A stretch of 49,046 nucleotides of DNA from Aequorivita lipolytica (GTDB taxonomy: Bacteria > Bacteroidota > Bacteroidia > Flavobacteriales > Flavobacteriaceae), in contig NZ_VORU01000016.1 of assembly GCF_007997135.1 (NCBI RefSeq), positions 1 to 49,046 on the forward strand, read 5' to 3'. Position numbers and translations under genes: made by a program. Under the pieces are notes generated by a model. It was not told where the DNA came from. It saw nothing but the letters and a program-made list of their open reading frames with translations, and made no database searches. Positions 14,261 through 48,875 of this stretch are shown piece by piece (the stretch's first letter is position 1; every line of letters begins with the position of its first letter).

Positions 14261-14357
14261 TGAACTTTGAACTCTGAACTCTGAACTCTGAACTCTGAAC
14301 TCTGAACTCTGAACTCTGAACTCTGAACTCTGAACTCTGAACTCTGAACTCTGAACT
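14261..14357. repeat. 7-bp tandem repeat (CTGAACT), about 14 copies, before gldF
   Basis: The unit CTGAACT repeats from about 14261, with one early variant, to 14357 and ends 8 bp before the gldF start codon. It therefore occupies the place of the ribosome-binding region and promoter of gldF. Together with the 8-bp array it fills most of the 312-bp gap. Confidence 0.97.
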
Positions 14358-14365
14358 TAAAATAA

Positions 14366-15073
14366 ATGTTTACAATAATAAAACGCGAAATAAATTCCTT
14401 CTTTTCAAGTACCATCGGGTATTTGGTGGTTGCTGTTTTTTTGGTTATAAACGGTTTGTTTCTTTGGGTTTTTAACGGAAGTTTCAACATACTCGATTCC
14501 AGCTTTGCAGACCTTTCCCCCTATTTTGAACTCGCGCCCTGGGTGCTGCTTTTTTTGATTCCCGCAGTATGTATGCGCGCCTTTAGCGACGAAATGAAAA
14601 TGGGCACTTTAGAACTTTTACTCACCAAACCGGTATCGTTGAAACAAATAGTTTTGGGGAAATACTTCGGTGCAGTTCTCTTAATTTTGATAGCGTTGGC
14701 GCCAACAGTTTTGTACGTTTTTACCATTTCAGAATTAGGCAATCCTCCCGGCAATTGGGACGTTGGCAGTACAATTGGCTCTTACATTGGACTATTATTT
14801 TTAGTGCTTGCCTATACTTCTATTGGTATATTTTCATCCACGCTTTCGCAGAATCAGATTGTTGCTTTTATAATTGCCGTTTTTCTCTGTTTTGCGCTTT
14901 ATTATGGCTTTGATAGCTTTTCATCTTTAAGTTTTAATATTTCACAATTCGGGATGAAGGCCCATTTTGATAGCGTTGCCCGCGGGGTTTTAGACACACG
15001 GGATTTGATTTACTTTTTGAGCGTTACGGCATTTTTCATTGCGTTGACCATTTTTAAATTGAAAAAACAATAA
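14366..15073 (+). CDS. gldF: Gliding motility ABC transporter permease GldF
   Basis: 235-aa inner-membrane protein with six hydrophobic segments. It is the permease of the GldA-GldF-GldG transporter needed for gliding in Flavobacterium johnsoniae. The start MFTIIKREINSFFSSTIGYL, a central MRAFSDEMKMGTLELLLTKP (the EAA-like cytoplasmic loop of ABC-2 permeases) and the following gldG gene make the call firm. It overlaps gldG by one base (TAATG), so the two are coupled. The ATPase gene gldA is not adjacent, which is usual. The 5' leader consists of a 7-bp tandem repeat, so any slippage there could alter expression. Confidence 0.95.
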   Translation: MFTIIKREINSFFSSTIGYLVVAVFLVINGLFLWVFNGSFNILDSSFADLSPYFELAPWVLLFLIPAVCMRAFSDEMKMGTLELLLTKPVSLKQIVLGKYFGAVLLILIALAPTVLYVFTISELGNPPGNWDVGSTIGSYIGLLFLVLAYTSIGIFSSTLSQNQIVAFIIAVFLCFALYYGFDSFSSLSFNISQFGMKAHFDSVARGVLDTRDLIYFLSVTAFFIALTIFKLKKQ

Positions 15074-16767
15074 TGAAGACTTCAGTTAGAAAAAATATAG
15101 GTTCGCTGATAGTTTTGATTGCAGGACTGATTCTTTTGAACATCCTCGGAAACTATTTCTACAAGCGCTTTGACCTTACACAGGACGAGCGTTTCACCCT
15201 TTCCGAAGAAGCAAAACAAATTGTTGATCAAATTAATTCTCCCATAGTCGTGGATGTTTTTCTGAAAGGAAATTTTCCGCCTGAATTCCGCAGACTTCAA
15301 AATGAAAGCGAACAACTTTTAGAGGAGTTTTCAGCCTATAATTCCAATATAAAGTTTGAATTTATCAACCCTACCAAAAAAGGCAACGAAGCCTTCCAAT
15401 CGCAATTTGAGAAATTTGGCTTGACACCCGCTCAAGTATCCGTTACCGAAAGCGGTAAACAGAGCACCGAACTTGTCTATCCATGGGCACTGGCCCATCA
15501 CGATGGCAGATCAATTAAAATACCATTACTAAAAAACCAACTGGGCGCCACTTCTGAAGAAAGAGTGAACAGTTCCCTTCAAAATCTGCAATATGCCTTT
15601 GCTGATGCCTTTAAAAAACTTGCAACTGAAAAATCCAAGAAAGTAGCGGTATTAAAAGGAAACGGCGAATACGACGACCGCTACATTGCAGATTTCTTTG
15701 GAACACTTCGGGAATATTATTTTATCGCTCCTTTTACGCTCGATTCTGTTGCTTCCAATCCTGAAAAAACTTTAAGCGCTTTAAATAGTTTTGATTTAAT
15801 TGTGGCCGCGCAGCCCACAGAGGCTTTCAGTGATGCTGAAAAGTATGTGCTGGATCAATATATTATGAATGGCGGAAACTCTCTTTGGTTGCTTGATGCA
15901 ACCCAAATGAAGTTGGATACGGTTAGCGGAAACAGTTTCGCTTTTGGGAAGGATTTAAACCTAAACGATTTCTTCTTTAATTACGGAATTCGCATCAATC
16001 CTAACTTGGTGAAAGACGTTTATTCCGCGCCCATAGTTTTGGCCAGTGGCGACGATAGAGACTCGCAATACAGCCGCTATCCTTGGTTTTTTAGTCCACT
16101 TAGTAGCAGCGCAAACAATCACCCAATTGTTTCAAACATTGAAGCTGTAAAGTTTGATTATGCCAGCGCAATTGATACACTTCCAAACAATATTAAAAAA
16201 ACGGTGCTGCTCTCCACTTCCCCCATAAGTAAAATAGTGGGACTGCCCTTCCCTATTGATTTTGATGTAGAAATTCCGAAGAATTTACAAGTAGTGAACG
16301 AAGGGCCAAATCCCAATGAATACAACGCTGGCGAAGTGCCGCTCGCGGTTTTGATGGAAGGTGAATTCACTTCAGTTTTTAAAAATCGCGTGAAGCCTTT
16401 AAAATTGAGTGGCGAACTGAAAAATATAGATGACGGTAGCGATTCAAAAATGGTCGTTATTAGCGATGGGGACATCATAAAAAACCAAATGCAGGGCAAT
16501 AGACCGCTTGAACTCGGCTTCGATAAAATGACCAATCAGTTCTATGGAAATAAGGAATTTCTGCTGAATACGGTCAATTACCTTCTTGACGACAGCGGAC
16601 TTATAAACATTAGAACACGGCAAATTGCGGTGCCATTTCTGGATCCACAAAAAACTGTGGAACAACGCACCAAGTGGCAAATGCTTAATATATTGTTACC
16701 GTTGGGGTTACTGGCTCTTTTTGGAATAGGTTTTACCCTTTACCGAAAACGTAAATACACTCGCTAA
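15073..16767 (+). CDS. gldG: Gliding motility-associated ABC transporter substrate-binding protein GldG
   Basis: 564 aa with an N-terminal membrane segment (about 10-27), a large periplasmic region and a second membrane helix close to the C-terminus (LLPLGLLALFGIGFTLY). The FKRFDLTQDERFTLSEEA-like segment near residue 30 and the QINSPIVVDVFLKGNFPPEFRRL segment are hallmarks of GldG and the related ABC-type uncharacterised transport family. It works with GldF and GldA in gliding; the transported substrate is not known. The ATG overlaps the gldF stop by one base. No strong terminator separates it from dnaN, although a short GTTTG/CAAAC stem lies at 16778-16793. Confidence 0.94.
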   Translation: MKTSVRKNIGSLIVLIAGLILLNILGNYFYKRFDLTQDERFTLSEEAKQIVDQINSPIVVDVFLKGNFPPEFRRLQNESEQLLEEFSAYNSNIKFEFINPTKKGNEAFQSQFEKFGLTPAQVSVTESGKQSTELVYPWALAHHDGRSIKIPLLKNQLGATSEERVNSSLQNLQYAFADAFKKLATEKSKKVAVLKGNGEYDDRYIADFFGTLREYYFIAPFTLDSVASNPEKTLSALNSFDLIVAAQPTEAFSDAEKYVLDQYIMNGGNSLWLLDATQMKLDTVSGNSFAFGKDLNLNDFFFNYGIRINPNLVKDVYSAPIVLASGDDRDSQYSRYPWFFSPLSSSANNHPIVSNIEAVKFDYASAIDTLPNNIKKTVLLSTSPISKIVGLPFPIDFDVEIPKNLQVVNEGPNPNEYNAGEVPLAVLMEGEFTSVFKNRVKPLKLSGELKNIDDGSDSKMVVISDGDIIKNQMQGNRPLELGFDKMTNQFYGNKEFLLNTVNYLLDDSGLINIRTRQIAVPFLDPQKTVEQRTKWQMLNILLPLGLLALFGIGFTLYRKRKYTR

Positions 16768-16806
16768 ATGTTGATAAGTTTGTTTTAGCAAACACTTCAA
16801 TTGAAA

Positions 16807-16814
16807 TATATTTG
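16807..16814 (+). promoter_or_regulatory. -7 element for dnaN
   Basis: TATATTTG is an exact match to TAnnTTTG and lies 92 bp before the dnaN start. It overlaps the left edge of a sequence related to a dispersed repeat (GTGGTTCAACAGGCTCACC, 16812-16830). The -33 element is weak. Confidence 0.4.
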
Positions 16815-16906
16815 TGGTTCAACAGGCTCACCAAACTTTTAAGCTACTATCAATTAAAAGTTTTGGGAGAGCATTATTGACAATTATTTCATCAAAAACA
16901 CATATA

Positions 16907-18025
16907 ATGAAATTTATCGTATCGAGTTCGTATTTATTAAAACAACTGCAAGTTTTGGGCGGTATTATAAATAACAACAATACCCTGCCTATTTTAGATA
17001 ATTTCCTTTTCAACTTGGACGGGAAATCCCTTACCGTTTCAGCTTCCGATTTGGAAACTACTATTTCCTCAAAGTTGGAGGTTGAAAGCACTGAAAAAGG
17101 ATTGGTCTGCATTCCTGCAAGACTATTGTTGGAAACCTTGAAAACCTTTCCAGAGCAGCCGTTAACCTTTACCGTTGAAGATAACAACACTATTGAAATT
17201 AGCTCCAATCACGGTAAATACGCTTTAGCGTACGCCAGTGGCGAAGAATTTCCAAATGCTGTGGAATTGAAAGAACCTTCCGCCACAGTTGTTCAGGGAG
17301 ATGTACTTGCTACGGCAATCAGCAAAACAATTTTTGCTTCGGGAAACGATGATCTAAGACCCGTAATGAGCGGTGTTTTCTTTCAGTTTTCAACGGACAA
17401 TTTAGTGTTCGTTGCAACCGATGCGCACAAATTGGTAAAATATACCCGCGATGATATTAGCGCTTCACAAACTGCGGAATTCATAATGCCGAAAAAGCCG
17501 CTTACCCTTTTAAAAAGCATTCTAGCAGGAAGCGAGGAAAACGTTACCATAGAATATAACGAAAGCAACGCAAAGTTCATTTTTGAAAATACCGAAATGA
17601 TTTGCCGATTGATTGATGGGAAATATCCAAACTACGAAGCCGTAATTCCAAAAGAAAACCCAAACAAATTGGTTATTGATAGAAACCAGTTTTTAAATTC
17701 CGTGCGTCGTGTTTCTATTTTCTCTAGCAAAACAACGCACCAAATCCGTTTGAAAATTGCGGGCGCTGAATTGAACATTTCAGCGGAAGATATAGATTAC
17801 AGCAACAAAGCCGAAGAGCGTTTAACCTGCGATTATCAAGGCGATGATATGCAGATAGGTTTCAACAGCCGTTTCCTTACGGAAATGCTGAACAACCTTA
17901 CAAGCGATGAAGTTTCTTTGGAAATGAGTTTGCCAAACAGAGCTGGAATTCTTACCCCTGTTGACGGGCTTGATGAAGGCGAAACGGTTACTATGCTTGT
18001 TATGCCGGTAATGCTTAATAATTAG
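16907..18025 (+). CDS. dnaN: DNA polymerase III sliding clamp, beta subunit
   Basis: 372-aa ring-forming processivity factor that tethers DNA polymerase III to DNA. Recognisable parts are the N-terminal MKFIVSSSYLLKQLQVLGG, SASDLETTISSKLEV, a conserved PVMSGVFFQ segment and the C-terminal TMLVMPVMLNN, which contributes to the peptide-binding pocket. The reading frame is open to 16814, but the ATG at 16907 gives the canonical start and the usual length; the upstream 31 codons are mostly leader. Its TAG stop codon lies within the first unit of an 8-bp tandem repeat. A palindromic terminator follows. Confidence 0.96.
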   Translation: MKFIVSSSYLLKQLQVLGGIINNNNTLPILDNFLFNLDGKSLTVSASDLETTISSKLEVESTEKGLVCIPARLLLETLKTFPEQPLTFTVEDNNTIEISSNHGKYALAYASGEEFPNAVELKEPSATVVQGDVLATAISKTIFASGNDDLRPVMSGVFFQFSTDNLVFVATDAHKLVKYTRDDISASQTAEFIMPKKPLTLLKSILAGSEENVTIEYNESNAKFIFENTEMICRLIDGKYPNYEAVIPKENPNKLVIDRNQFLNSVRRVSIFSSKTTHQIRLKIAGAELNISAEDIDYSNKAEERLTCDYQGDDMQIGFNSRFLTEMLNNLTSDEVSLEMSLPNRAGILTPVDGLDEGETVTMLVMPVMLNN

Positions 18026-18073
18026 ATTCTTAGATTCTTAGATTCTTAGATTCTTAGATTCTTAGATTCTTAG
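18022..18073. repeat. 8-bp tandem repeat (TTAGATTC), 6.5 copies, containing the dnaN stop codon
   Basis: Six exact units of TTAGATTC plus a partial one. The TAG of the first unit is the dnaN stop codon, so the array begins at the end of the coding sequence. Confidence 0.97.
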
Positions 18074-18096
18074 AAGTTTAGAATATTATTTTAAGT

Positions 18097-18118
18097 AATC
18101 CGCCCAATTGGGCGGATT
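18097..18118 (+). terminator. dnaN terminator
   Basis: Perfect 22-bp palindrome AATCCGCCCAA / TTGGGCGGATT followed by a T run. Confidence 0.92.
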
Positions 18119-18212
18119 TTTTTTATTTCAAAATTGTGATGACATATTCTTTATCGTTTCGATGTGTAGTTAGTTTAATCCTTAAAATCACTAACAACTA
18201 AAAACTACACAC

Positions 18213-18719
18213 ATGAAAACATTAAAAACATTGAGCATTTTATTCTTCTCTTTACTAATTCTTTCTTGTTCCAAAGATGATGATAACGACAGTGGCGGAG
18301 ATCCTGCCAAAACTGAATTTACCGCTACAATCAATGGCGGAGGCTTTGGCAGCAATTACGCAGCTCGCTTGGGAAGCTACTCAACGGACTCCAACAACGG
18401 ACTAACCCTTGCAATAACAGATGAGAATGCAAACGTGATACGCTTTTTTTTCAATCAAACAGGTGGCTTTGGAAGCGGAATCACCAAAATTGTTGGAGAC
18501 GTAGATTCCAACGGATTCGTAACAAACGTTATAATTAGGGACCAAGGCGCCCAAGTTACTTACAACTCTTCCGAGGGTGAGATAAATATCTTGGAGAACC
18601 GCGAAAATCCTGATAGCGAGGACGGGCGGTTGATATCCGGAAACTTTACCATAACGGCAACTTCAGGGGTGGGACCCACTGTTACTATGACCGGAAACTT
18701 TAAGGATTTTGCTTATTGA
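18213..18719 (+). CDS. Hypothetical lipoprotein
   Basis: 168 aa beginning with a lipoprotein signal peptide whose lipobox is LILSC (Cys20), followed by an acidic SKDDDND stretch of the kind that often serves as the export signal to the outer membrane or cell surface in Bacteroidota. The mature part is glycine- and serine-rich and beta-strand-like (EFTATINGGGFGSNYAARLG; NFTITATSGVG), similar in pattern to small immunoglobulin-like or DUF lipoproteins, but I do not recognise a family. It is monocistronic, flanked by the dnaN terminator and by its own terminator. Function unknown. Confidence 0.8.
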   Translation: MKTLKTLSILFFSLLILSCSKDDDNDSGGDPAKTEFTATINGGGFGSNYAARLGSYSTDSNNGLTLAITDENANVIRFFFNQTGGFGSGITKIVGDVDSNGFVTNVIIRDQGAQVTYNSSEGEINILENRENPDSEDGRLISGNFTITATSGVGPTVTMTGNFKDFAY

Positions 18720-18742
18720 TTAAATAAAATGTTCAAAGAACC

Positions 18743-18774
18743 AAAAAAGGGTTGCACGAACGCTACCCTTTTTT
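18743..18774 (+). terminator. Terminator after the lipoprotein gene
   Basis: AAAAAAGGGT and ACCCTTTTTT form a stem around a 12-nt loop, followed by further T residues. Confidence 0.88.
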
Positions 18775-18828
18775 TTATGTCCGCTCCGTTCCATTTAGAC
18801 AATCGTTTAAAAGTTTACCAAAGAATCT

Positions 18829-18836
18829 TACCTTTG
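18829..18836 (+). promoter_or_regulatory. -7 element just upstream of mnmE
   Basis: TACCTTTG matches TAnnTTTG exactly and ends only 6 bp before the mnmE ATG, so the transcript would have a very short or no leader. The -33 position reads GTTTA. Confidence 0.4.
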
Positions 18837-18842
18837 CTGCCA

Positions 18843-20246
18843 ATGATACATACAGACACCATAGTGGCAATGGCTACCCCAGCAGGCGCTGGAGCAATAG
18901 CAGTTTTAAGGCTTTCAGGGCCAGAAGCTATAGCAATTGCTTCTTTTATCTTTACTTCCGTTTCCGGAAAGGAACTCGCAAAACAGAAAACCCATACCGT
19001 ACATTTAGGGAATATAAAAGATGGTGAACGTGTTATTGATGAAGCACTCATAACAATTTTTAAAAATCCAAATAGCTACACAGGTGAAGATGTGGTTGAA
19101 ATCTCCTGCCACGGAAGTAATTACATTCAGCAAGAAATAATACAACTATGCCTTCGGAAAGGCTGTCGAATGGCGCAAGCTGGCGAGTTTACACTTAGAG
19201 CATTCCTTAATGGAAAGATGGATTTAAGCCAAGCAGAAGCAGTTGCAGACCTTATTGCTAGCGACAGTGCTGCCAGCCATCAGCTTGCAATACAGCAGAT
19301 GCGTGGTGGTTTTTCTTCAGAAATAAAAAAGCTACGTGAGGAACTGTTAAATTTTGCTTCGTTAATTGAGTTAGAATTGGATTTTGCCGAGGAAGACGTA
19401 GAATTTGCAAACAGGGACGAATTTCAAAAACTTATTTCAAAAATAACCCAGGTTCTGAAACGTTTGATTGATTCCTTCGCCACGGGAAATGTACTAAAAA
19501 ATGGAATTCCTGTGGCCATTGTGGGCGAACCAAACGTTGGAAAATCCACGCTTTTAAACGCCCTTTTAAATGAAGACCGTGCTATAGTTTCAGAAATTGC
19601 AGGAACTACCCGAGATACTATTGAAGATGAAATAAGCATTGGCGGAATCGGGTTTCGTTTTATTGATACCGCCGGAATCCGGGAAACGTTGGACGTTATT
19701 GAGGGATTGGGAATAAAGAAAACTTTTGAAAAAATTGAAGCTGCTCAAGTTGTTATTTACCTCTTTGATTCTGAAAAGTTTCAGGTTTCAGGTTCCAAGT
19801 TTCAGGTTGAAATTGAAACCATCAAAAACAAATATCCTTTAAAAAATCTTGTGATTGTTGCCAACAAAGTGGATAAACTTTCAGAAGAAGAAACAAAACA
19901 ACTATATGTCACCCTGAGCGCAGTCGAAGGGTCTTCTTTTCTATTACTTTCTGCGAAAACGAAAAATGGTGTTACCGAACTTCAAAATAAATTACTCGAT
20001 TTCGTAAACACTGGCGCACTCCGCAACAACGAAACCATTGTTACCAACAGCCGTCACTACGACGCCATGCTGAAGGCTTTGGAGGAAATTATCAAAGTAC
20101 AGCAAGGTATTGACAGCGGTTTGAGCGGCGATCTTTTGGCTATAGATATTCGGCAGGCGCTTTATTATTTCGGTGAAATTACCGGTGAAATCTCTAACGA
20201 TGAGTTATTGGGTAACATATTTGCCAATTTCTGCATCGGAAAGTAA
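18843..20246 (+). CDS. mnmE: tRNA uridine-5-carboxymethylaminomethyl(34) synthesis GTPase MnmE
   Basis: 467-aa GTPase that, with MnmG, modifies U34 of certain tRNAs. The N-terminal tetrahydrofolate-binding domain begins MIHTDTIVAMATPAGAGAIA. The helical and G domains carry the P-loop GEPNVGKSTLLN, the G2/G3 region AGTTRDT and DTAGIRET, and the NKVDK base motif. The C-terminus ends with the essential CIGK, whose Cys is catalytic. The frame is open to 18729, but that stretch is the preceding terminator and promoter; the ATG at 18843 matches the family. Two stretches of the G domain (about residues 313-322 and 355-365) are encoded by dispersed-repeat DNA. It is convergent with the C45 hydrolase gene, 9 bp apart. 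Confidence 0.95.
   Translation: MIHTDTIVAMATPAGAGAIAVLRLSGPEAIAIASFIFTSVSGKELAKQKTHTVHLGNIKDGERVIDEALITIFKNPNSYTGEDVVEISCHGSNYIQQEIIQLCLRKGCRMAQAGEFTLRAFLNGKMDLSQAEAVADLIASDSAASHQLAIQQMRGGFSSEIKKLREELLNFASLIELELDFAEEDVEFANRDEFQKLISKITQVLKRLIDSFATGNVLKNGIPVAIVGEPNVGKSTLLNALLNEDRAIVSEIAGTTRDTIEDEISIGGIGFRFIDTAGIRETLDVIEGLGIKKTFEKIEAAQVVIYLFDSEKFQVSGSKFQVEIETIKNKYPLKNLVIVANKVDKLSEEETKQLYVTLSAVEGSSFLLLSAKTKNGVTELQNKLLDFVNTGALRNNETIVTNSRHYDAMLKALEEIIKVQQGIDSGLSGDLLAIDIRQALYYFGEITGEISNDELLGNIFANFCIGK
19779..19806 (+). repeat. Four-unit heptamer run (TTTCAGG) inside mnmE
   Basis: TTTCAGG, TTTCAGG, TTCCAAG, TTTCAGG in direct succession. This is the same 7-bp word family as the intergenic arrays. It encodes FQVSGSKFQV in the mnmE G domain without breaking the frame. 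Confidence 0.8.
19907..19935 (+). repeat. Dispersed 'CCCTGAGCGCAGTCGAAGGG' element inside mnmE
   Basis: An element of the type GTCACCCTGAGCGCAG followed by TCGAAGGGTC, familiar to me as an intergenic repeat in many Flavobacteriaceae, lies in frame in mnmE and encodes VTLSAVEGS between the NKVDK motif and the LLLSAK segment. A related copy is at 24731. Confidence 0.7.
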
Positions 20247-20255
20247 ATAGCCATC

Positions 20256-21536
20256 TCAAATTTTTGGGTCGTCCTTAGTTGCCATACCCGTACTCGACCA
20301 AATATCGGCCAACATTTCCCAAGGTATCTGGCCTCTCTTTTTATTTTCAGAAGTAATTTGCTCCATAATATTCTTCAATACAGGACTGTCGGAAATTCCC
20401 ATGGCAGCACCAATTGTCTTTACAACCATTTGCGCAAGTTCCACAGGTTCCTGGGTTGCCCACGATTTTCCATACGCCTCCCAATCGGTATGCGTGGTTG
20501 GCATTTCTATATCTTCGGGTCTTGTTGCAGCTGTATCTAATACAGTCGCTCTTTCTGCTGGGATTTTTTCATTATAGGTTATAAGTATTTCGCCTTCTTC
20601 GAAATTAGCAAACGATTGGCTCAACGAATTCTTATCCCACTTCAGCTCCATTTTGCCCTCTGCTGGGTGGTAAATGGATGTATAGACAGTTCCAAATCCC
20701 TCATTATATTTTCGGTTGAACAGCGGACTTTTCAAAAACGCCTCAACAATAGCATTTTGTTCCTGTCCCTTTTCAGAAATAATCTTTTGCAGAAATGCTT
20801 CACGCTCCAATGTTTTTGAAAACTGAGCATGTTCCGGCCAGTCTATTTTCCCTTGATGGTTTGTTGAAAGTTCAATGTCTTTTACTATCGGGTCACGATC
20901 GGGAGCCAACTGTAATAACTTATGGCTACCTGTCTTGTCTAAAACCATAACATTGTAGGCCATATGGGATGGAATATGCTGCAAAACTTCAACAGCTTCA
21001 GAAACACTTGAACAGAACTCAAGCACATAACGGATTATAAATGGAATTCCAAAGCCCTTGCCCACTACTTTTCTTCCCCCAAAAGTGAGGGAAACAACCA
21101 AACCATCAGAATTCATTCCATCTACCATACCCCATAAGCAATCACTAATCCCTATAATATGTTTTCCATTCCAAGCGGTGTTTAATATAGTACCTTCAGA
21201 CAAATGAGGATGATAGTCATAATTCCTTATCAGCATCGGCGGGTTTTGAGTGATAAGCTGTGAGCACCCACTAATATATGCCGGAGGTTGATATCCGGTC
21301 AAAAAACGTTCTGCTATGGGATCGTTACCTGCCAAGCTGCAAAGTTTTTCATAGGTAGGAACAAATTTTGGCATATACTCCTGTAGCTTTGCCTTGGCCA
21401 CAGATAACGGTGGGTTATCCACCGCACCTTTGCTTTGGAACCAAGCCTTATAAGCAGGCCAATGTTTCAGAAATAATTTTTGCCATTTTTGTCCAGGCTT
21501 CGCCTCAGAAATTGATTGATAATTAAGTTGTAGCAT
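20256..21536 (-). CDS. C45 family peptidase / acyl-transferase-like Ntn hydrolase
   Basis: 426 aa, related to acyl-CoA:6-aminopenicillanate acyltransferase and C45 peptidases. The probable N-terminal nucleophile is the Cys of SGCSQL (about residue 90), followed by PPMLIRNYDYHPHL, which is typical of choloylglycine- and AAT-like Ntn hydrolases that cut or form amide bonds. Here the Cys is preceded by a ~90-residue propeptide-like region, in keeping with autoproteolytic activation. No signal peptide is seen, so it is likely cytoplasmic. It is the last gene of the leftward amine cluster, 82 bp after the aldehyde dehydrogenase gene. A role in hydrolysing an amide conjugate made by the ATP-grasp ligase is inference from context. 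Confidence 0.8.
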   Translation of the reverse strand: MLQLNYQSISEAKPGQKWQKLFLKHWPAYKAWFQSKGAVDNPPLSVAKAKLQEYMPKFVPTYEKLCSLAGNDPIAERFLTGYQPPAYISGCSQLITQNPPMLIRNYDYHPHLSEGTILNTAWNGKHIIGISDCLWGMVDGMNSDGLVVSLTFGGRKVVGKGFGIPFIIRYVLEFCSSVSEAVEVLQHIPSHMAYNVMVLDKTGSHKLLQLAPDRDPIVKDIELSTNHQGKIDWPEHAQFSKTLEREAFLQKIISEKGQEQNAIVEAFLKSPLFNRKYNEGFGTVYTSIYHPAEGKMELKWDKNSLSQSFANFEEGEILITYNEKIPAERATVLDTAATRPEDIEMPTTHTDWEAYGKSWATQEPVELAQMVVKTIGAAMGISDSPVLKNIMEQITSENKKRGQIPWEMLADIWSSTGMATKDDPKI

Positions 21537-21618
21537 TTTTTTTTAAGTTCTTTATTAAATTTTAATTTTCGTTTAGGAAGTAGCTGATATTGAAATAGAA
21601 TGTAATCAGAAAATCAAT

Positions 21619-22974: not shown

Positions 22975-23016
22975 AGAATTAATTTCTCATTAACTATTGT
23001 TATTTAACAAATCAAC

Positions 23017-23049: not shown

Positions 23050-23050
23050 T

Positions 23051-23113
23051 GACTGAATACTGCGTACTGGATACTGATTACTGATTACTGATTACTGAAT
23101 ACTGAATACTTAT
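23051..23113. repeat. Heptamer array (TACTGAT type), nine units, ending in the ATP-grasp stop codon
   Basis: Nine consecutive 7-mers: GACTGAA, TACTGCG, TACTGGA, three TACTGAT, two TACTGAA, then TACTTAT. The last unit contains the complement of the TAA stop of the leftward ATP-grasp gene. Confidence 0.92.
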
Positions 23114-31080: not shown

Positions 31081-31108
31081 GCTGTAGGCTGTAGGCTGTA
31101 GGCTGTAG
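31081..31108. repeat. Heptamer array GCTGTAG, four exact units
   Basis: Directly follows the T tract of the FKBP terminator. The complement CTACAGC reappears as the AGCCTAC array at 47797. Confidence 0.95.
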
Positions 31109-31122: not shown

Positions 31123-31185
31123 AATTACTCATCACTCATTACTCATTACTCATTATTAATTATTAATTATTCATTACTAATTAAT
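31123..31185. repeat. Heptamer array CATTACT/AATTATT, nine units
   Basis: AATTACT, CATCACT, CATTACT twice, CATTATT, AATTATT twice, CATTACT and AATTAAT in unbroken 7-bp register. Confidence 0.9.
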
Positions 31186-31225
31186 CATCTCCCCTTTTTC
31201 TAGGTTCAGAATCTCAGCAATTTGC

Positions 31226-34330: not shown

Positions 34331-34376
34331 TGAATCTGTGAGTATGTGAATGCGTGTATTTTTGAATAAAAAAATC

Positions 34377-34439
34377 TTGACTCCTGATTCTTGGCTCTTG
34401 ACTCGTAGTTCTTCGCTCGTCGCTTTTCGCTTACTCCTA
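34377..34439. repeat. Degenerate heptamer array (TTGACTC type), nine units
   Basis: TTGACTC, CTGATTC, TTGGCTC, TTGACTC, GTAGTTC, TTCGCTC, GTCGCTT, TTCGCTT and ACTCCTA in register, ending 13 bp before the TonB receptor ATG. GTGAATCT-like 8-mers precede it at 34330-34350. Confidence 0.85.
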
Positions 34440-36780: not shown

Positions 36781-36955
36781 TCTAGCCTCTAACTTCTAGC
36801 TTCTAACTTCTAGCCTCTAGCTTCCAGCTTCTGGTTGCAGGTTGCAGGTTTCAGGCTGCAGGTTGCAGGTTGCAGGTTGCGGGTTTCAACTTCCTATTTC
36901 CCAAATTTCAAACTTCCAACTTCCAACTTCCAACTTCCCATTTTCCCTTTTCGCT
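36781..36955. repeat. Heptamer array of about 25 units that switches words (TCTAACT, GCAGGTT, TTCCAAC)
   Basis: From 36781: TCTAGCC, TCTAACT and related words (8 units), then GCAGGTT and variants (7), then TCAACTT, CCTATTT, CCCAAAT, TTCAAAC, TTCCAAC (three times), TTCCCAT, TTTCCCT and TTTCGCT. The period is 7 nearly throughout. It fills the gap between the TonB receptor and lipoate ligase genes and keeps a spurious N-terminal extension open for the latter. Confidence 0.92.
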
Positions 36956-38008: not shown

Positions 38009-38023
38009 CCCGATAGCTATCGG
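38009..38023. repeat. Dispersed palindrome, trimmed copy
   Basis: CCCGATAGCTATCGG, eleven bases after the lplA stop codon. Same family as the palindrome at 32847. Confidence 0.9.
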
Positions 38024-38052
38024 AATCGGGATTAGGGGGATTTGGGATTCGG

Positions 38053-38150
38053 AGTGAAATACGAAGTGCTAGAAGTGCGAGCTCCGAAATACGAGCGACG
38101 AGGTATGGGCGACGAAGGACGAGATGCGAGCGACAGGGAACGAACGCATG
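38053..38150. repeat. Degenerate heptamer array (CGACGAG type), about 14 units
   Basis: The run reads GTGAAAT, ACGAAGT, GCTAGAA, GTGCGAG, CTCCGAA, ATACGAG, CGACGAG, GTATGGG, CGACGAA, GGACGAG, ATGCGAG, CGACAGG, GAACGAA, CGCATGA, with seven-base spacing of the CGA/GAG element. Confidence 0.8.
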
Positions 38151-38472: not shown

Positions 38473-38481
38473 CTTTAATTG

Positions 38482-38523
38482 ATCGCTCGTCGCTCGTATT
38501 TCGTAACTCGTAGTTCGAACTAC
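38482..38523. repeat. Heptamer array (GTCGCTC/GTAACTC), six units, containing the azurin stop codon
   Basis: ATCGCTC, GTCGCTC, GTATTTC, GTAACTC, GTAGTTC and GAACTAC. The last unit includes the complement of the TAG stop of the azurin gene (38520-38522). Confidence 0.88.
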
Positions 38524-39029: not shown

Positions 39030-39061
39030 AGCACTTTTTTAAGGTTAATTATTATTATGTA

Positions 39062-40510: not shown

Positions 40511-40520
40511 AAAACGGAAT

Positions 40521-42902: not shown

Positions 42903-43029
42903 AATTTAATTTCTTGGACAATCTAATGGGTTTCGCTCTTAAAATATAACCCTCTAATTTTTCGCGATAATGCGATAAATAATAAAATATAAATGTTTTA
43001 GTAATGTTGTGCAATCTTCCGATTTTAAC

Positions 43030-43815
43030 CTATCTAAAAATAATGGCCATAGCCGAAAGAAGTAAGGAGGCAACACTAACGTAGATAGCGGTATTCCTGT
43101 TAAAACTACTGCTCTGTACCTGTGCGGTGTTTGGTTCCACATATACCACGTCGTTCTGCTGCAGATAATAATAGTCACTGTTCAGTACATCAGCACTTCT
43201 AAGATCGAGATACTTAAAGTTTTTGATCTTGCCATCGTCCCTGATTACCAAAACATTATCCCTTCGCCCATAAAGGGTTAAATCTCCCGCCAGGCCGAGT
43301 GCGGCAGGCAGCGTAAGGCGTTCTCCTTCAAAATTATAGGTTCCGGGCCTGTTAACCTCTCCCAATAAACTCACCTTAAAATTTACAATACGTACGGTAA
43401 CGATGGGATCTTTTACATATTCTGAAATACGCTGGCTCAACATTTCACTAAGCTCCGTCCTAGTTAGTCCCGCTACCTTAATCCTTCCCAATACCGGAAA
43501 ATCTATGGTGCCATCCTGTGCGGTAAGATAGGCTTGCTGCTGATTGCTAGTATTATAGGAAACGCCAGTTGCCTCTATTGTTGGTCGTGTCTCACTAATA
43601 AGATTGAACGGACGCACAGCATTTAAATCGTAGGCCGATACCACGATACTTAGAAGATCGTCAGACTGGATTTTTGAACTTTTTTGAATAGTGTCCAAAA
43701 GCATCTGACCTTCGGATAAATCCTGAAAGTAAACTATTTTTTCTGAAGAAACACAGGAAACACCTATGCTCCCAAGTAAAAACAAGATAAATACTTTAGT
43801 AAAAAAACGTCTCAT
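43030..43815 (-). CDS. Polysaccharide export lipoprotein (Wza family)
   Basis: 261 aa from the ATG at 43815, which starts a lipoprotein signal MRRFFTKVFILFLLGSIGVSC. A Poly_export domain (SDDLLSIVVSAYD to LGRIKVAGLTRTE) and a following SLBB-like domain (VSLLGEVNRPGTYNFEGERLTLPAAL) are visible, then a C-terminal membrane helix, AIYVSVASLLLSAMAIIF. It is a shorter member of the Wza family, with one inferred SLBB domain, and provides the outer-membrane or envelope export channel. The frame is open to 43872 without a signal peptide; the shorter start is preferred. Confidence 0.92.
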   Translation of the reverse strand: MRRFFTKVFILFLLGSIGVSCVSSEKIVYFQDLSEGQMLLDTIQKSSKIQSDDLLSIVVSAYDLNAVRPFNLISETRPTIEATGVSYNTSNQQQAYLTAQDGTIDFPVLGRIKVAGLTRTELSEMLSQRISEYVKDPIVTVRIVNFKVSLLGEVNRPGTYNFEGERLTLPAALGLAGDLTLYGRRDNVLVIRDDGKIKNFKYLDLRSADVLNSDYYYLQQNDVVYVEPNTAQVQSSSFNRNTAIYVSVASLLLSAMAIIFR

Positions 43816-44002
43816 CAATTTTTTTTTGCAAATATAATCTTTTCTAATCAGCTTACTTAAAGGAAGTAGCATATAACCGAGAAAATTATCATTTCATCTA
43901 TAAAAACACTTCAAGATGACCGAAATCCCAAAAAAAATAATTCCCTCCTTTATTCTAAAAAGATAACTAAGTTAGCCCTTTATTCTCTTTTATAAAAACA
44001 GA

Positions 44003-44030
44003 GAACCTTCATATATAAGTACGAAGGTTC
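44003..44030 (-). terminator. Hairpin after the 4,6-dehydratase gene
   Basis: Stem GAACCTTC / GAAGGTTC with a 12-nt loop, 31 bp past the stop codon of the leftward dehydratase gene. On the minus strand it is followed by TCTGTTTTT, a modest T tract. Confidence 0.65.
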
Positions 44031-44060
44031 AGTATATTAAAAAGTTTGTTTTTTCTTAAT

Positions 44061-46022
44061 TCAATTTTGATGGTGAACATCTAATATTTGGAACTCGGAA
44101 TTTTGACTCACATATTCAGGAACCAGTTCCTTAAGTCTAATAACAACATCCATTTTTTTGTTCTTTGAAGTAGCATTAACTATTGCTTGAATCTTCTCGC
44201 TTACACTGCTGAAATTTTCAGAGTGAACTTTAGAGACCATAATTTTAGAGTGATACGTGGGCAGTGTTTGTGAGGTGTCGCTCAACAATTCCTCATAAAG
44301 TTTCTCGCCGGGGCGCAAACCGATTATCTGTATATCGATATCCTTATAGGGTTTTAGGCCAGACAGCAATATCATACGTTCGGCCATATCCAATATTTTC
44401 ACAGGCTTACCCATATCAAAAATAAAGATCTCACCACCTTTTCCCATGGTTCCAGCTTGCAGTACAAGTTGACAGGCTTCTGGAATGGTCATAAAATAAC
44501 GTATTATTTCTTTATGCGTAACTGTCACGGGTCCTCCAGCAGCTATTTGTTTTCTAAAGTAAGGAATGACCGATCCGTTGGAACCCAAAACATTACCGAA
44601 ACGTGTGGTAATAAATCTTGGATGGGTACCTATTTTTTCCTGAAGGGATTGCACATACATCTCTGCCGCCCGTTTGGACGCGCCCATAACGTTGGTTGGG
44701 TTTACGGCCTTATCTGTTGAAATCATTACAAATTTATCAATACCGTGCTGCACGGAAAGATTTGCAAGATTAACAGTCCCGCAGATATTGACACCCACAG
44801 CTTCATGCGGGTTCTTTTCAATCATCGGCACATGCTTATAGGCTGCAGCGTGATATACCATATCAAACTTATAAGTTGAGAATATCATCTCCAGGCGTTC
44901 TACATTACGAACATCTGCCAAGACCGTTGAAAATTTCAAATCGGGAAACGCACTATTTAAATACAGTTCCATTTCATAAAGTGCAGTTTCAGCATTGTCC
45001 AAGACAACAATCTCGCTAGGGTTAAAGACCGCTAATTGCTTAACTATCTCACTACCGATAGAGCCCGCCCCACCAGTTACCAAAATGGTTTTATGCTCTA
45101 AATCGTCCTTAATAATTTCAGTATCTATTTCAATAGGACGTCTATCCAAAAGATCCTCAATTTCTATATGTTTTATCTGAGTCTGTATATCCTCTTTTTT
45201 GTTCCAATTCTCCACCAGTGGCACATTGAAAACTTCAATACTGTTTGCCAAGCAAGCCTCTACTATTTCGTTTGTTTCAGAAACCGAAAGTGAATCGCGT
45301 ACCATCAAAACACCATCCAGTTGGTGTTTCTTAATCAATTCGGCGAATTGAAGGGAATCTTTATTGATAGGCAAAGAAAAAACAGGTTTACCCATTATAC
45401 TTAGGCTTTTATTAGAAGAATTTTCTGTAAGAAAACCGATTAAATGAAAAGACAAGTCAGATTCCGTGGTAAGCGCTCTTCCCAAACTAATGGTCTGGTT
45501 ATCCATTCCCACTATCGCCACACGCTTTTTTAAACTACTGTTGTTCATTCTTCTTAAATACTGATAAGACTCTTTCACCACGATTCTAAAAAATAGCATC
45601 AATGTAAAAGAAAAGAACATATATAGAAGAATGCCAGTGGTTAGAAAGATTTTTTCTCCACTCACGGCGAAATAAGCCATATTGAAAATCACCACTGAAA
45701 GTGCAGTTAAAAAAGAAGCCGCAGCAACCCTAAACACATCTGTAAAAGTGGAATGACGAACTATGCCCGCATAGGTGCGAAGCATATAGAAGAAGTAAAC
45801 GTTGGCGCCAATAATAAAAGCAGCCCTAACTGGGGTAGGCCAAACTTTTTGGAATTTTAAAGGTGTACCATCCAAGATAAAATACGCCATCCCAAAGGAA
45901 ACGACGCATATAAGAATATCAATCATAAATACTGCCCAGCGCGGTAAATAGCGTTGGTTCAGTAAGCAAATAGTTTTAGTACGCATTCTTATTTGTTCTA
46001 AAATAGAAATTTTATGAGTCAC
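44061..46022 (-). CDS. Membrane-bound UDP-sugar 4,6-dehydratase (PglF/WbpM/CapD family)
   Basis: 653 aa. Four N-terminal membrane helices (to about residue 160), a CoA-binding-like domain, and a C-terminal SDR dehydratase: NAD motif TGGAGSIGSEI, catalytic STDKAVNPTNVMG and KRAAEMY. As in PglF and WbpM, Met stands where the usual SDR Tyr is found and a Thr-Asp-Lys triad is present. It converts UDP-GlcNAc to the 4-keto-6-deoxy sugar, which the DegT aminotransferase upstream in the operon would aminate. Length is typical for the large membrane form. It supplies the first committed sugar of the surface polysaccharide. Confidence 0.93.
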   Translation of the reverse strand: MTHKISILEQIRMRTKTICLLNQRYLPRWAVFMIDILICVVSFGMAYFILDGTPLKFQKVWPTPVRAAFIIGANVYFFYMLRTYAGIVRHSTFTDVFRVAAASFLTALSVVIFNMAYFAVSGEKIFLTTGILLYMFFSFTLMLFFRIVVKESYQYLRRMNNSSLKKRVAIVGMDNQTISLGRALTTESDLSFHLIGFLTENSSNKSLSIMGKPVFSLPINKDSLQFAELIKKHQLDGVLMVRDSLSVSETNEIVEACLANSIEVFNVPLVENWNKKEDIQTQIKHIEIEDLLDRRPIEIDTEIIKDDLEHKTILVTGGAGSIGSEIVKQLAVFNPSEIVVLDNAETALYEMELYLNSAFPDLKFSTVLADVRNVERLEMIFSTYKFDMVYHAAAYKHVPMIEKNPHEAVGVNICGTVNLANLSVQHGIDKFVMISTDKAVNPTNVMGASKRAAEMYVQSLQEKIGTHPRFITTRFGNVLGSNGSVIPYFRKQIAAGGPVTVTHKEIIRYFMTIPEACQLVLQAGTMGKGGEIFIFDMGKPVKILDMAERMILLSGLKPYKDIDIQIIGLRPGEKLYEELLSDTSQTLPTYHSKIMVSKVHSENFSSVSEKIQAIVNATSKNKKMDVVIRLKELVPEYVSQNSEFQILDVHHQN

Positions 46023-46054
46023 AGTATCGTAGGATTTAGGACTACAAATATAAA

Positions 46055-47191
46055 CTATTTCTCGATTAAGTGTATTAAAATATCGTTAATCTTCACCTTT
46101 TCTTCATTTTGGAGGTTTGAACCTGAGGGTAAACACAAACCAATTTCAAACAGCTGTTCGGAAACTTTATCGCCATAATAAGGGGCATTTTTAAAAACGG
46201 GCTGCAAGTGCATTGGCTTCCATAACGGTCTGCACTCTATATTATTCTCTGCCATGGCCAAGCGTATATCTTCATTTGAGAAACCGCTTGTCTTTCTATC
46301 TACAAGAATACACGACAACCAATGGTTAGAAAAATAATCGGCATTTGGCTCATTAAATACCTGAACCCCTGCTGTATTCTGAAAAATGTCTTTATAAAAT
46401 TGGTTCATATCTCTTCTCAAACCCACGTGCTTATCAAGTACTTCCATCTGCCCCCGCCCTATTCCAGCTGAAATATTACTCAACCTATAGTTGTATCCAA
46501 TTTCAGAATGTTGGTAATGTACTGCCGCATCGCGAGCTTGGGTGGCTAGGAATATTGCTTTTTCTTTGTGTTTTAAATTACGTGAAACCAAAGCGCCGCC
46601 CCCAGAGGTGGTAATAATTTTATTACCATTAAAGGAAAGGATTGAAAGGTCGCCAAAAGTCCCACATTTTTGTCCTTTATAACTACTGCCCAAAGCTTCG
46701 GCGCTATCCTCAACTACGGGTATTTCATATTTTTCTGAAATCTTTCTAACTTCATCAACCTTATATGGCATTCCGTAAAGATGCACTGCAATTATGGCCT
46801 TTGGTTTTTTGCCGTTGGAAATTCTATCTTTTATAGCCTCCTCAAGATGATGTGGACATATATTCCAAGTATCGGGCTCACTATCCACAAATATTGGGGT
46901 TGCGCTTTGATACATAATAGGATTTGCGGAAGCAGAAAAGGTAAAGCTCTGGCATATTACCTCATCATCTCTTTCCACACCTAGCATTATAAGCGCCAAA
47001 TGGATCGCAGCCGTGCCTGAACTAAGCGCTGCAACGTGGTTATTGGAACCCAAATAGTTTTCTATTGCAATTTCAAATTGCTCCACGTTGGGGCCTAATG
47101 GGGCTATCCAATTTGTTTCAAAAGCCTCATTTACGTAAGTCTGTTCACTTCCGCCCATATGTGGGGAGGATAAGTAAATTTTTTCTTTCAT
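46055..47191 (-). CDS. DegT/DnrJ/EryC1/StrS family sugar aminotransferase
   Basis: 378 aa from the ATG at 47191 (an in-frame GTG at 47197 adds two residues). PLP enzyme that aminates 4-keto-6-deoxy sugars, like PglE. Signatures are SGTAAIHLALI, FTFSASANPI, VVEDSAEALGS (Asp) and the Schiff-base Lys in SFNGNKIITTSGGG. It lies 32 bp before the 4,6-dehydratase gene, giving a two-step route to a UDP-4-amino-4,6-dideoxy-N-acetylhexosamine. No acetyltransferase (PglD) is seen in the window. A 622-bp region with repeats precedes it. Confidence 0.93.
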   Translation of the reverse strand: MKEKIYLSSPHMGGSEQTYVNEAFETNWIAPLGPNVEQFEIAIENYLGSNNHVAALSSGTAAIHLALIMLGVERDDEVICQSFTFSASANPIMYQSATPIFVDSEPDTWNICPHHLEEAIKDRISNGKKPKAIIAVHLYGMPYKVDEVRKISEKYEIPVVEDSAEALGSSYKGQKCGTFGDLSILSFNGNKIITTSGGGALVSRNLKHKEKAIFLATQARDAAVHYQHSEIGYNYRLSNISAGIGRGQMEVLDKHVGLRRDMNQFYKDIFQNTAGVQVFNEPNADYFSNHWLSCILVDRKTSGFSNEDIRLAMAENNIECRPLWKPMHLQPVFKNAPYYGDKVSEQLFEIGLCLPSGSNLQNEEKVKINDILIHLIEK

Positions 47192-47464
47192 TAGCACAGT
47201 TTGTTTAAAAAAAATTTTTAATTAAAATCTCAATCGAAAATCAATTGCATATCAATTAAATAGGATTATTTCGTAAACGATATCATAGAACTTTGTATTG
47301 TCAAAATTCTCAAATATTTATGGATTTTTTGGAGGGCGCAAAGCTAGAAAATTAAAAATGGATTTATAATGTTTAAGAATAATTTAATATTAAAAGAACC
47401 CTGTTTTGAAGGTGGGATTTGATAATATTATCGCTTTAAATTATTTATTTCTGAACAGAACAGC

Positions 47465-47525
47465 CGCTGGTCTCGATAAAATCTCGATGAAAAATCGGAA
47501 TCACTCGGTCACCTTTAATTGTGAC
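47465..47525. repeat. 61-bp direct repeat, copy A
   Basis: Identical to copy B at 47548-47608 in 53 of 61 positions with no gaps. Both carry a GTCAC/GTGAC stem at the right end; three of the eight differences lie in its loop. Confidence 0.9.
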
Positions 47526-47547
47526 TTTCAATATTCCGAATTGCAAG

Positions 47548-47608
47548 CGCTGGCCTCGATACAATCCCAATGAATAATCGGAATCACTCGGTCACCATAG
47601 ATTGTGAC
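47548..47608. repeat. 61-bp direct repeat, copy B
   Basis: See copy A. Starts CGCTGGCCTCGATAC and ends GATTGTGAC; the core AATCGGAATCACTCGGTCAC is shared exactly. Confidence 0.9.
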
Positions 47609-47689
47609 CTAAAATTCCCAATTTTCATATTTCGAACATCCCCATTTCCCGAATGCCGAATTAACAAATCCCGAATTAACGAATCCCGA

Positions 47690-47769
47690 TCCCGATAGCT
47701 ATCGGGACCCGAATTAACGATCCCGATCGCTATCGGGACACATATTCACAATCCCGATAGCTATCGGGA
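47690..47769. repeat. Three spaced copies of the dispersed palindrome
   Basis: TCCCGATAGCTATCGGGA occurs at 47690-47707 and 47752-47769; the middle copy at 47721-47738 has C for A at one position. Starts are 31 bp apart. Confidence 0.95.
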
Positions 47770-47796
47770 CACATATTCACATACAACGCACAGCAA

Positions 47797-47824
47797 AGCC
47801 TACAGCCTACAGCCTACAACCTAA
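47797..47824. repeat. Heptamer array AGCCTAC, three units plus a variant, containing the sugar transferase stop codon
   Basis: AGCCTAC three times, then AACCTAA. On the minus strand this is AGGTTGT followed by AGGCTGT-type words; the first TAG is the stop codon of the leftward sugar transferase gene, which ends FRL. Confidence 0.93.
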
Positions 47825-48359
47825 AAACAACCACCTCAAAAATAATCCTCAAATCCCCGAAAAACGATCTATTATAATAATACTGCAAATTCATCCGCAC
47901 CTTATCGGGAAAGATAACCTCATCATTATATTTCAAGGGTTCTTTTTGTTTTACCAATAGCATCTCTTCGTTATAATATTTCAAGGCAGCGGCGCTGCAT
48001 AGGCCAGGTTTCAGTTCAAGGATTTTTCGTGACTCTCCTTCCAGCCTATCGTAATAACCCGGCACATCGGGCCGTGGGCCCACAAAACTCATCTGCCCTA
48101 AAAGAATGTTAAGCAATTGTGGGAGTTCGTCCAGTTTTGAACTTCTAAGAAAACTGCCATAGGCTGAAATGGTGCCACGGCGCACTTTCATGGAACGTAT
48201 TTTATAAATTTTAAAAGGCTTGCCATATTGACCAATTCTGGTTTGAAGGAAGAGCCCCTTCCCTGTGTCAATGGCCGCAACAATAATTAATACTACAATC
48301 AACCAACCGATGAGTATTAAGAGGAAAGCCGAAAACAGTATGTCGAAGATTCTTTTGAT
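47814..48359 (-). CDS. Undecaprenyl-phosphate sugar phosphotransferase (bacterial sugar transferase, PglC-like); start codon lost
   Basis: About 180 aa. It moves a sugar-1-phosphate onto undecaprenyl phosphate, beginning polysaccharide repeat-unit synthesis. The family start IKRIFDILFSAFLL (48359 to about 48320) runs into the membrane hairpin, then LFLQTRIGQYGKPFKIYKIRSM, GSFLRSSKLDELPQLLNILLGQMSFVG and GPRPDVP, with the catalytic Asp-Glu (LDELPQ). No ATG, GTG or TTG exists upstream of the conserved start: the frame reaches a TAA at 48375-48377 through ATA codons. A TTG at 48302 would delete the conserved N-terminus. The gene is probably a pseudogene, uses a rare start, or suffers a slip in the AT-rich repeat upstream. 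Its stop codon lies in a heptamer array. Confidence 0.8.
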   Translation of the reverse strand: MKRIFDILFSAFLLILIGWLIVVLIIVAAIDTGKGLFLQTRIGQYGKPFKIYKIRSMKVRRGTISAYGSFLRSSKLDELPQLLNILLGQMSFVGPRPDVPGYYDRLEGESRKILELKPGLCSAAALKYYNEEMLLVKQKEPLKYNDEVIFPDKVRMNLQYYYNRSFFGDLRIIFEVVVFRL

Positions 48360-48361
48360 TG

Positions 48362-48483
48362 GATTTATTATTATTTATTTTCTATTATTATTCTTTATTA
48401 TTCTTTATTGCTATTTTCTATTATTATTTGCTATTTCTTTGGCGCTATTGCGGCTAAGGTAGTGAAATATTTAGTTGGGGATA
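48362..48483. repeat. AT-rich low-complexity tract before the heptamer array
   Basis: A stretch built from TTATTAT, TTTCTAT, TTGCTAT and CGCTATT-like 7-mers (48365-48460), with loose register. It occupies the 5' end of the sugar transferase gene. Confidence 0.6.
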
Positions 48484-48875
48484 GGTTGCAGGTTGCAGGT
48501 TGCAGGTTGCAGGTTACAGGTTACAGGTTACAGGTTACAGGTTACTGGTTGCAGGTTGCAGGTTGCAGGTTACAGGTTACAGGTTACAGGTTGCAGGTTG
48601 CAGGTTGCAGGTTGCAGGTTACAGGTTACAGGTTACTGGTTGCAGGTTGCAGGTTGCAGGTTACAGGTTACTGGTTACAGGTTGCAGGTTACAGGTTGCA
48701 GGTTACAGGTTGCAGGTTACTGGTTACTGGTTGCGGGTTGCGGGTTACAGGTTACAGGTTGCAGGTTACAGGTTACAGGTTACAGGTTACAGGTTGCAGG
48801 TTACAGGTTACAGGTTACTGGTTGCGGGTTACTGGTTACTGGTTACTGGTTACTGGTTGCAGGTTGGAGGTTCAA
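48484..48875. repeat. 56-unit heptamer array GGTTRCW
   Basis: Exactly 56 heptamers in unbroken register. By last three bases: GCA 20, ACA 21, ACT 10, GCG 3, plus single GGA and CAA at the right end. The left part is ordered in blocks (GCA x4, ACA x4, ACT; GCA x3, ACA x3; GCA x4, ACA x2, ACT; GCA x3, ACA, ACT). All three plus-strand frames are open because the unit lacks stop codons, so the overlapping frames here are artefacts. Confidence 0.98.

Follow-up and report, generated by a model that had tools for sequence, protein, structure and literature searches.

The window analysed here is the whole 49,046-bp stretch of contig C8 from Aequorivita lipolytica, whose 3.31-Mb genome is a draft of 47 contigs. 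Arrays of tandem repeats with units of 7 or 8 bp lie in the gaps between its genes, among them the gaps before gldF, behind dnaN and before lplA, and one short run lies within mnmE (Table 1). A sequence-only reading of the window had described at least ten intergenic gaps as containing uninterrupted DNA of period 7, and had added the mnmE run. The listed places were cut into 13 segments (the block at 36781 giving three) and each was compared with 1000 shuffles. Lag 7 was the best of lags 4–11 in 13 of 13 segments, the mnmE run included. The observed best-lag value was reached in none of the 1000 shuffles for ten segments and in 0.1 to 0.3% of them for mnmE, 38053 and 38482, values that are descriptive only because the segments had been chosen for looking periodic. 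Tandem Repeats Finder called arrays at all of the places noted earlier except 38053. The period therefore holds at every listed site, but ‘uninterrupted’ does not describe the stretches at 34377, 38053 and 38482 (identities in Table 1), and the period is not always 7, since two strong arrays that had not been listed (before gldF and at the end of dnaN) have period 8.

Table 1. Repeat arrays and period-7 stretches of the window (ORF, open reading frame)
Position	Strand	Feature	Context	Evidence
14069..14163	+	octamer array GGTTAGAT x 11.9	between small ORF 13748-14053 and gldF	Tandem Repeats Finder, lag test
14256..14357	+	heptamer array AACTCTG x 14.6	end 8 bp upstream of gldF start codon	Tandem Repeats Finder, lag test
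18022..18083	+	octamer array TTAGATTC	dnaN stop codon (TAG, 18023-18025) inside first unit	Tandem Repeats Finder
19774..19812	+	short period-7 run GTTTCAG	within mnmE, final third of gene	Tandem Repeats Finder, lag test
23052..23110	+	heptamer array ACTGAAT x 8.4	adjoins stop codon of minus-strand biotin carboxylase gene	
31081..31108	+	heptamer array GCTGTAG x 4.0		Tandem Repeats Finder, lag test
31124..31188	+	heptamer array ATTACTC and variants x 9.3		Tandem Repeats Finder, lag test
34375..34431	+	degenerate period-7 stretch		lag-7 identity 0.61; Tandem Repeats Finder periods 21 and 14
36781..36832	+	heptamer array TCTAGCT	part 1 of three-word composite upstream of lplA	
36833..36885	+	heptamer array GGTTGCA	part 2 of three-word composite upstream of lplA	
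36887..36938	+	heptamer array CAACTTC	part 3 of three-word composite upstream of lplA	
38053..38140	+	very degenerate period-7 stretch, CGA-bearing words		lag-7 identity 0.48; missed by Tandem Repeats Finder
38483..38521	+	degenerate heptamer array TCGCTCG/TAGTTCG		lag-7 identity 0.70
47797..47823	-	heptamer array, word of 31081 (GCTGTAG) on opposite strand	overlaps stop codon of minus-strand sugar-transferase-like ORF	
48483..48865	+	heptamer array, 54 whole units		Tandem Repeats Finder, unit count

The largest array, at 48483, ends 181 bp short of the contig end. Its units are of four types only (GGTTACA 21, GGTTGCA 20, GGTTACT 10 and GGTTGCG 3) and five of the seven unit positions are invariant, a pattern that few mutations together with much copying of units (homogenisation) would explain. 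All three forward frames are open across this array (48408-48964) and give spurious ORFs; a Pfam match to DUF6944 on an ORF across the array was rejected as probably an effect of the repeat.

The periodicity was further studied over intergenic DNA as a whole. Lag-7 identity in the intergenic DNA of the window was 0.408, or 0.360 once the two gaps with the largest arrays were set aside, against 0.258-0.321 at lags 2-6 and 8-13, and was 0.262 in the coding DNA of the window. The genome-wide comparison with shuffled intergenic DNA that the earlier reading had proposed was made on 382 kb of A. lipolytica including the window, with 20 shuffles, and gave z = 14 for lag 7. Echoes were present at lags 14, 21 and 28 (z 8, 10 and 4), lags 8 and 6 reached z 5 and 4, and the coding DNA of the same 382 kb showed no lag-7 signal. 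The comparison sets were four single-contig Aequorivita genomes (20 stretches of 20 kb each), 22 Aequorivita loci and 58 loci from other Flavobacteriaceae; L-numbers (e.g. L058) denote comparison loci and G-numbers (e.g. G007) genomes. Two of the single-contig genomes were sampled, and lag 7 was raised in both, with z of 7 and 4. It was less distinct in the Aequorivita loci, where its z of 4 was equalled by lag 14, and in the other Flavobacteriaceae loci, where lags 3 and 21 reached 6 beside its z of 7.

Intergenic array regions of periods 7, 8, 6, 5 and 9, respectively, numbered 24, 10, 3, 0 and 0 in A. lipolytica, 48, 7, 10, 0 and 0 in the four single-contig genomes together, 13, 3, 2, 0 and 0 in the 22 Aequorivita loci, and 28, 1, 1, 0 and 0 in the 58 other loci. 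Octamers thus form a second class, with 10 of the 34 period-7/8 intergenic regions in A. lipolytica as against 1 of 29 in the other Flavobacteriaceae loci. The excess is nearly limited to intergenic DNA. Of 138 period-7 regions, 25 fall in gene-called frames, some of which are spurious frames across arrays. Gaps with several words numbered 9 in A. lipolytica against 5.7 by chance (P 0.05) and 4 in the four single-contig genomes against 3.4 (P 0.47), or 13 against 7.9 when both sets were pooled (P 0.026). In L020 (10021-10252) a composite heptamer block acts as a longer unit, of roughly 90-100 bp, and is present about three times. The arrays are spread very unevenly, with 24 period-7 regions in the 60 kb of L018-L020 (G000:C45:1-60000) and 5 in 180 kb of contig C24, and counts per stretch were over-dispersed in G007 (mean 0.70, variance 2.01). 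No clear clustering toward one part of the chromosome was seen in the 20 stretches of each of the four genomes.

The length preference was quantified in 408,530 intergenic bases with four shuffles, after low-complexity stretches of period 1-3 had been taken out. Chance yields runs of a fixed length with nearly the same probability at every lag, which allows a direct comparison of lags; near-identical loci were each counted separately, both here and in the duplication counts below. Runs of at least 10 matches numbered 108 at lag 7 where 2.2 were expected, followed by 26 against 1.8 at lag 8 and 14 against 2.5 at lag 6. Numbers were near chance at lag 4 (4 and 3.5), lag 5 (1 and 2.8) and lag 9 (2 and 2.2), lag 10 gave 5 against 1.8, and the multiples of 7 were raised (41 against 3.0 at lag 14; 27 against 5.0 at lag 21). 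No exact run of at least 14 matches was found at periods 2-5 in a 386-kb sample. The preference for 7 bp exists already at the two-copy stage. Outside the called arrays, exact duplications of 7 bp numbered 124 against 41 expected, while those of 8, 6 and 9 bp numbered 26 against 14.4, 184 against 157.8 and 7 against 4.6, and those of 11 and 14 bp 6 against 0.4 and 5 against 0. As the period is conserved over unrelated words in the genome, the genus and the family, something favours 7 bp whatever the sequence.

The gap before gldF could be read in the window and in 21 of the 22 Aequorivita loci, 22 in all. Five of these gaps (the window, L058, L060, L067 and L068) contain arrays; the array-free ones measure only 4-10 bases in twelve cases and 42-91 bases in five. 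In the array-free gaps of L069 and L073 the sequence AGTTTGT-AGTTTGA, which runs across the upstream stop codon, forms a two-copy near repeat of 7 bp. The same spot holds heptamers like GGTTGTC in L068, AGGGATG heptamers and then an octamer in L060, and the octamer GTTTAGGA in L067. The window and L058, which are 84% identical in the gldF region, both carry two arrays, one of the octamer GGTTAGAT and one of the heptamer TGAACYY. In the window the octamers number 12 and the heptamer is almost uniformly TGAACTC, whereas L058 has a smaller number of octamers and mixes TGAACTT with TGAACCC. Between an array and the gldF start, the window, L060, L067 and L068 carry similar sequences of the type CTTTGCGCCTTTGCGAGA. 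A protein tree of GldF and DnaN left the genus poorly resolved, with 7 of 31 inner branches well supported.

The 3′ end of dnaN was read in 72 loci by scanning 60 nt around the stop codon at lags 4-12. A run of at least 10 matches was found in five loci, four of them at lag 7 (L068, L069, L073 and L133) and one at lag 8 (the window), and no run of 10 was found in the 72 loci at the remaining lags of this range. By eye, about two copies follow dnaN in L078, and in L105 two heptamers alternate with a period of 14. The dnaN stop codon lies within the first array unit in the window and in L069, and with one mismatch in L073; the first unit of L069, ACTAGAG, is the end of dnaN itself. Elsewhere, in L090, a stop codon closes the array unit GATGTAA. 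In an alignment of 12,352 bp L069 and L073 show 98.28% identity, yet behind dnaN the former has about nine copies of ACTAGAG and the latter 3.7 copies of GCTAGAG. Close relatives, here compared between species, thus differ in both word and copy number, the kinds of change that the earlier reading had proposed to look for between strains. More widely, 145 placed arrays of period 7 or 8 were compared with genes, here taken as the longest open frames as opposed to curated calls, and 26 of 147 gene 3′ ends lay within one unit of an array where 9.9 were expected (P 1.5e-5). The empty, short and changed arrays at orthologous gaps suggest that arrays arise locally, grow and are homogenised.

The words themselves were collected from 138 period-7 regions, 119 of which passed a support threshold of at least 0.75, to give 109 words (one per species and word). 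Words do differ between arrays, as had been noted, with 22 distinct words among the supported arrays of A. lipolytica, and the commonest of the 109, AACTCAT, occurs in 5. The loose pattern TTNYARS proved weak, fitting 6 of 20 window words and 11 of the 109 against 4.3 expected. The sharing of words by distant arrays was confirmed for GGTTGCA at 36833 and 48483 and for GCTGTAG at 31081 and, on the opposite strand, 47797. Three copies of GGTTRCA were present in 11 of 28 Aequorivita genomes, A. lipolytica included, and of the backward word in 0 of 28; three copies of AACCGAC were present in 12 of 28, with 2 of 28 for its backward control. Three copies of GGTTGCA were found in 0 of 147 genomes from other Flavobacteriaceae genera, and the word therefore seems to belong to the Aequorivita lineage. 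In G026, L237 and L238 each have a GGTTGCA array close to a contig end, and behind both arrays lies a common 343-bp stretch, 96% identical, which is possibly a mobile or duplicated element.

Several general rules for the words were tried. For TAACTCA the backward word was the commoner one, outside the genus (14 of 147 against 1 of 147, the control being counted by hand) and again in A. lipolytica (13 against 4 matches). This reversed polarity, together with the absence of three-copy GGTTGCA from the 147 genomes of other genera, led to rejection of a general lexicon of words set by chemistry. Three copies of AACYSAN showed a weak preference across the phylum, in 69 of 296 genomes as against 53 for the backward pattern (own genome included; backward counted by hand), and within the family, own genome left out, the figures were 16 of 29 and 7 of 29 (hand count). 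A preference for three-letter words, lacking G or C, was rejected (54 observed, 50.6 expected at matched GC), and choice of words for weak folding had no strong effect (mean rank 0.55, standard error 0.028). Nor were the arrays biased in strand with respect to genes, the GTT-rich strand being coding in 33 cases and the AAC-rich strand in 34.

The favoured and simplest interpretation of these data, to which we give a probability of roughly 0.6, places the arrays in the heptanucleotide class of long simple sequence repeats and has them born, enlarged and homogenised locally, with a strong preference for slips of 7 nt. It draws on the length preference and its presence at two copies, the overlaps with stop codons, the differences in word and copy number between relatives and the few unit types at 48483. 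An array would begin in unique DNA that holds two near copies of a 7-bp word, by chance or through a first small duplication. Units would then be gained, lost and homogenised by slipped-strand mispairing or unequal exchange during replication, and point mutations would alter the word and spread across the array. If slips were strongly biased toward 7 nt, and to a lesser degree toward 8 or 6, at the expense of 5 or 9, the period would persist while the word changes. The agent would presumably be the replication machinery. E. coli MutS repairs short loops of up to about four bases, and mutS1 and mutL were both found above cut-off in A. lipolytica, so short-loop repair may remove the shorter slips. 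Most arrays could be nearly neutral, persisting just past the ends of genes.

Some observations weigh against this interpretation. Local birth alone predicts no sharing of words at unrelated places, yet such sharing is seen within the genus. The 19 GGTTRCA arrays of the genus represent about 13 places that do not align with one another (blastn, pieces of at least 150 bp); one is an orthologous GGTTGCA locus that keeps its word in four species (A. lipolytica, G002, G019 and G023), and the rest comprise two more orthologous pairs, one pair that shares a flank and nine that align only within the array. Among 88 period-7 regions of A. lipolytica and the four single-contig genomes, identical words were found in 31 of 798 pairs within genomes and 42 of 2964 between genomes, a contrast as high as this arising in 0 of 2000 label shuffles. 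Between species, 32 pairs of words are identical against 9.8 by chance, partly at orthologous loci. Beyond local composition, AAC/GTT occurs in 56 of the 109 words (28.8 expected) and ACT/AGT in 41 (21.8 expected). Words are thus partly inherited, partly made locally and partly common to unrelated places, and local birth alone does not account for the last of these. Longer lags are also above expectation in the run spectrum (10 against 2.0 at lag 11, 13 against 1.2 at lag 15 and 15 against 3.2 at lag 16), the two-copy excess may in part consist of decayed old arrays, and gene starts are mildly enriched near arrays, with 15 of 143 within one unit against 8.8 expected (P 0.035).

It could be that segments are copied from array to array, by template switching or ectopic exchange in a common 7-bp register, each lineage building words of its own. 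The higher frequency of identical words within genomes, the distribution of GGTTRCA and GGTTGCA, and the composite at 36781-36938, which joins three words each present in other A. lipolytica arrays, are consistent with such copying and make it a possible, though not a likely, explanation. However, the excess in A. lipolytica is mostly that of one word (14 of its 17 identical pairs are AACCTGC, which equals GGTTGCA), the contrast is small when one mismatch is allowed (73 of 798 pairs within and 211 of 2964 between genomes, P 0.034), unrelated places have no common flanks apart from the one pair in G026, and several first units consist of the local gene end. The further proposal that copying between unrelated intergenic places in a 7-bp register, and not local slippage, fixes the period and leaves each lineage its own heptamer lexicon is doubtful. 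The sequence-only reading had itself preferred a mechanism that copies or measures 7 bp over slippage. The period does persist over unrelated words, but this is no argument against slippage, since any seed put through slippage or unequal exchange can give arrays like those of the orthologous gaps, which start from local sequence, vary in copy number and are uniform or mixed in word. An enzyme with a 7-nt ruler, for example a polymerase or a transposase-like activity making 7-nt target duplications, would produce the sharp length peak seen at two copies and later. It is nevertheless very improbable, as periods 8 and 6 exist, 8 even within the same gaps, and the prevalence of heptamers over many prokaryotes, in the available text of PMC6344855, does not point to a lineage-specific enzyme.

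Selection for the arrays as binding sites or unstructured leaders for a regulator of translation or transcription was also considered; a role of this kind has been proposed for the TAACTGA repeats of Beggiatoaceae. The position of the 14256 array just before gldF, the mild enrichment at gene starts and the GGTTGCA locus that retains its word in four species would all accord with selection. We regard it as unlikely, since at one and the same gene sister species differ in word, have octamers instead or lack an array, stop codons adjoin arrays more than start codons do, strand preference is absent and there is little sign of a folding constraint. An assembly artefact is hardly credible. The assembly is a draft and its largest array in the window lies close to a contig end, but the gldF-gap arrays recur in the independent assembly of L058, and the same classes of array are present in four single-contig genomes, which answers this worry as far as the present data allow.

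Cyanobacterial short tandemly repeated repetitive (STRR) families are a few fixed consensus words. They had been named as the nearest analogue, which is apt for the form, short intergenic tandem heptamers, but not for the words, which here vary by array and are not limited to a few per genome. The closer likeness is to the long simple sequence repeats of prokaryotes, whose heptanucleotide class was described by Mrazek 2007 (as summarised in PMC4679880) and among which, according to the available text on SPADE (PMC6344855), heptamers are the most abundant intergenic tandem DNA repeat in many prokaryotes, with no clear functional clue. As in those repeats, the Aequorivita arrays are tandem 7-bp intergenic units, units of 1-11 nt form runs longer than chance with heptamers as the top class, and unit number varies between close relatives (here between species). 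The starts at gene ends and the turnover of words at orthologous gaps were observed in the present data, and octamers are a clear second class in A. lipolytica. PMC4679880 and PMC4692102 report an idea of Mrazek's, namely that the polymerase holds a 7-nt stretch of DNA.

In its available text, MacGregor 2015 (PMC4679880) describes TAACTGA direct repeats in Beggiatoaceae, cyanobacteria and some Bacteroidetes, including TAACTGA arrays with other heptamers nearby in Aequorivita sublithincola and Gramella. It also reports that Cyanothece strains differ by 7-nt indels and that some repeats overlap stop codons. Several heptamers per gap, 7-nt changes and some stop-codon overlaps are thus common to that system and the present one. 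That system has one favoured word and seldom repeats related heptamers, whereas here no word dominates, and TAACTGA (canonical AACTGAT) is the consensus of 2 of 138 period-7 regions. Its repeats lie mostly just upstream of starts in forward orientation, unlike the present arrays, which adjoin gene ends as well as starts and show no strand preference. Rehm 2015 (PMC4692102), as far as its available text goes, finds that the heptamer arrays of two Xanthomonas species are mostly flanked by the same genes in both and vary in length and sequence. The heptamers GGGNATC (Xanthomonas) and GGGGA(C/T)T (Nostoc) from that paper are rich in G and follow one consensus, and the Aequorivita arrays do neither. 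The hmw promoter tracts of Haemophilus influenzae, in the accessible part of PMC2651432, have the same unit length and a position upstream of some genes; phase variation is a feature of those tracts, whereas the arrays here are known from sequence alone. A literature search, mainly outside subscription journals, listed no paper on arrays born at stop codons, or on changing words in orthologous gaps, from Flavobacteriaceae.

Other features of the window were also recorded. The palindromic element CCCGATAGCTATCGGG forms three 31-bp units at 47689-47781, and one slightly altered copy follows lplA (~38009-38030). Two successive gene pairs, at 2795-5165 and 5625-7998, are laid out alike, each coding for an MBOAT-family acyltransferase and for a 326-aa protein with no Pfam match. 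No family reached its gathering score in an Rfam scan of the window, and a scan of the window for transfer RNA genes gave none.

The preference for heptamers is known for many prokaryotes; Aequorivita adds orthologous gaps in which empty sites, short arrays and changed arrays form a series. In the gaps behind dnaN and before gldF, birth, growth and change of word can be read side by side, and two-copy duplications allow the length preference to be measured. The dominance of heptamers between prokaryotic genes is an observation that has stood for years without an explanation, and Aequorivita opens it to a direct test.

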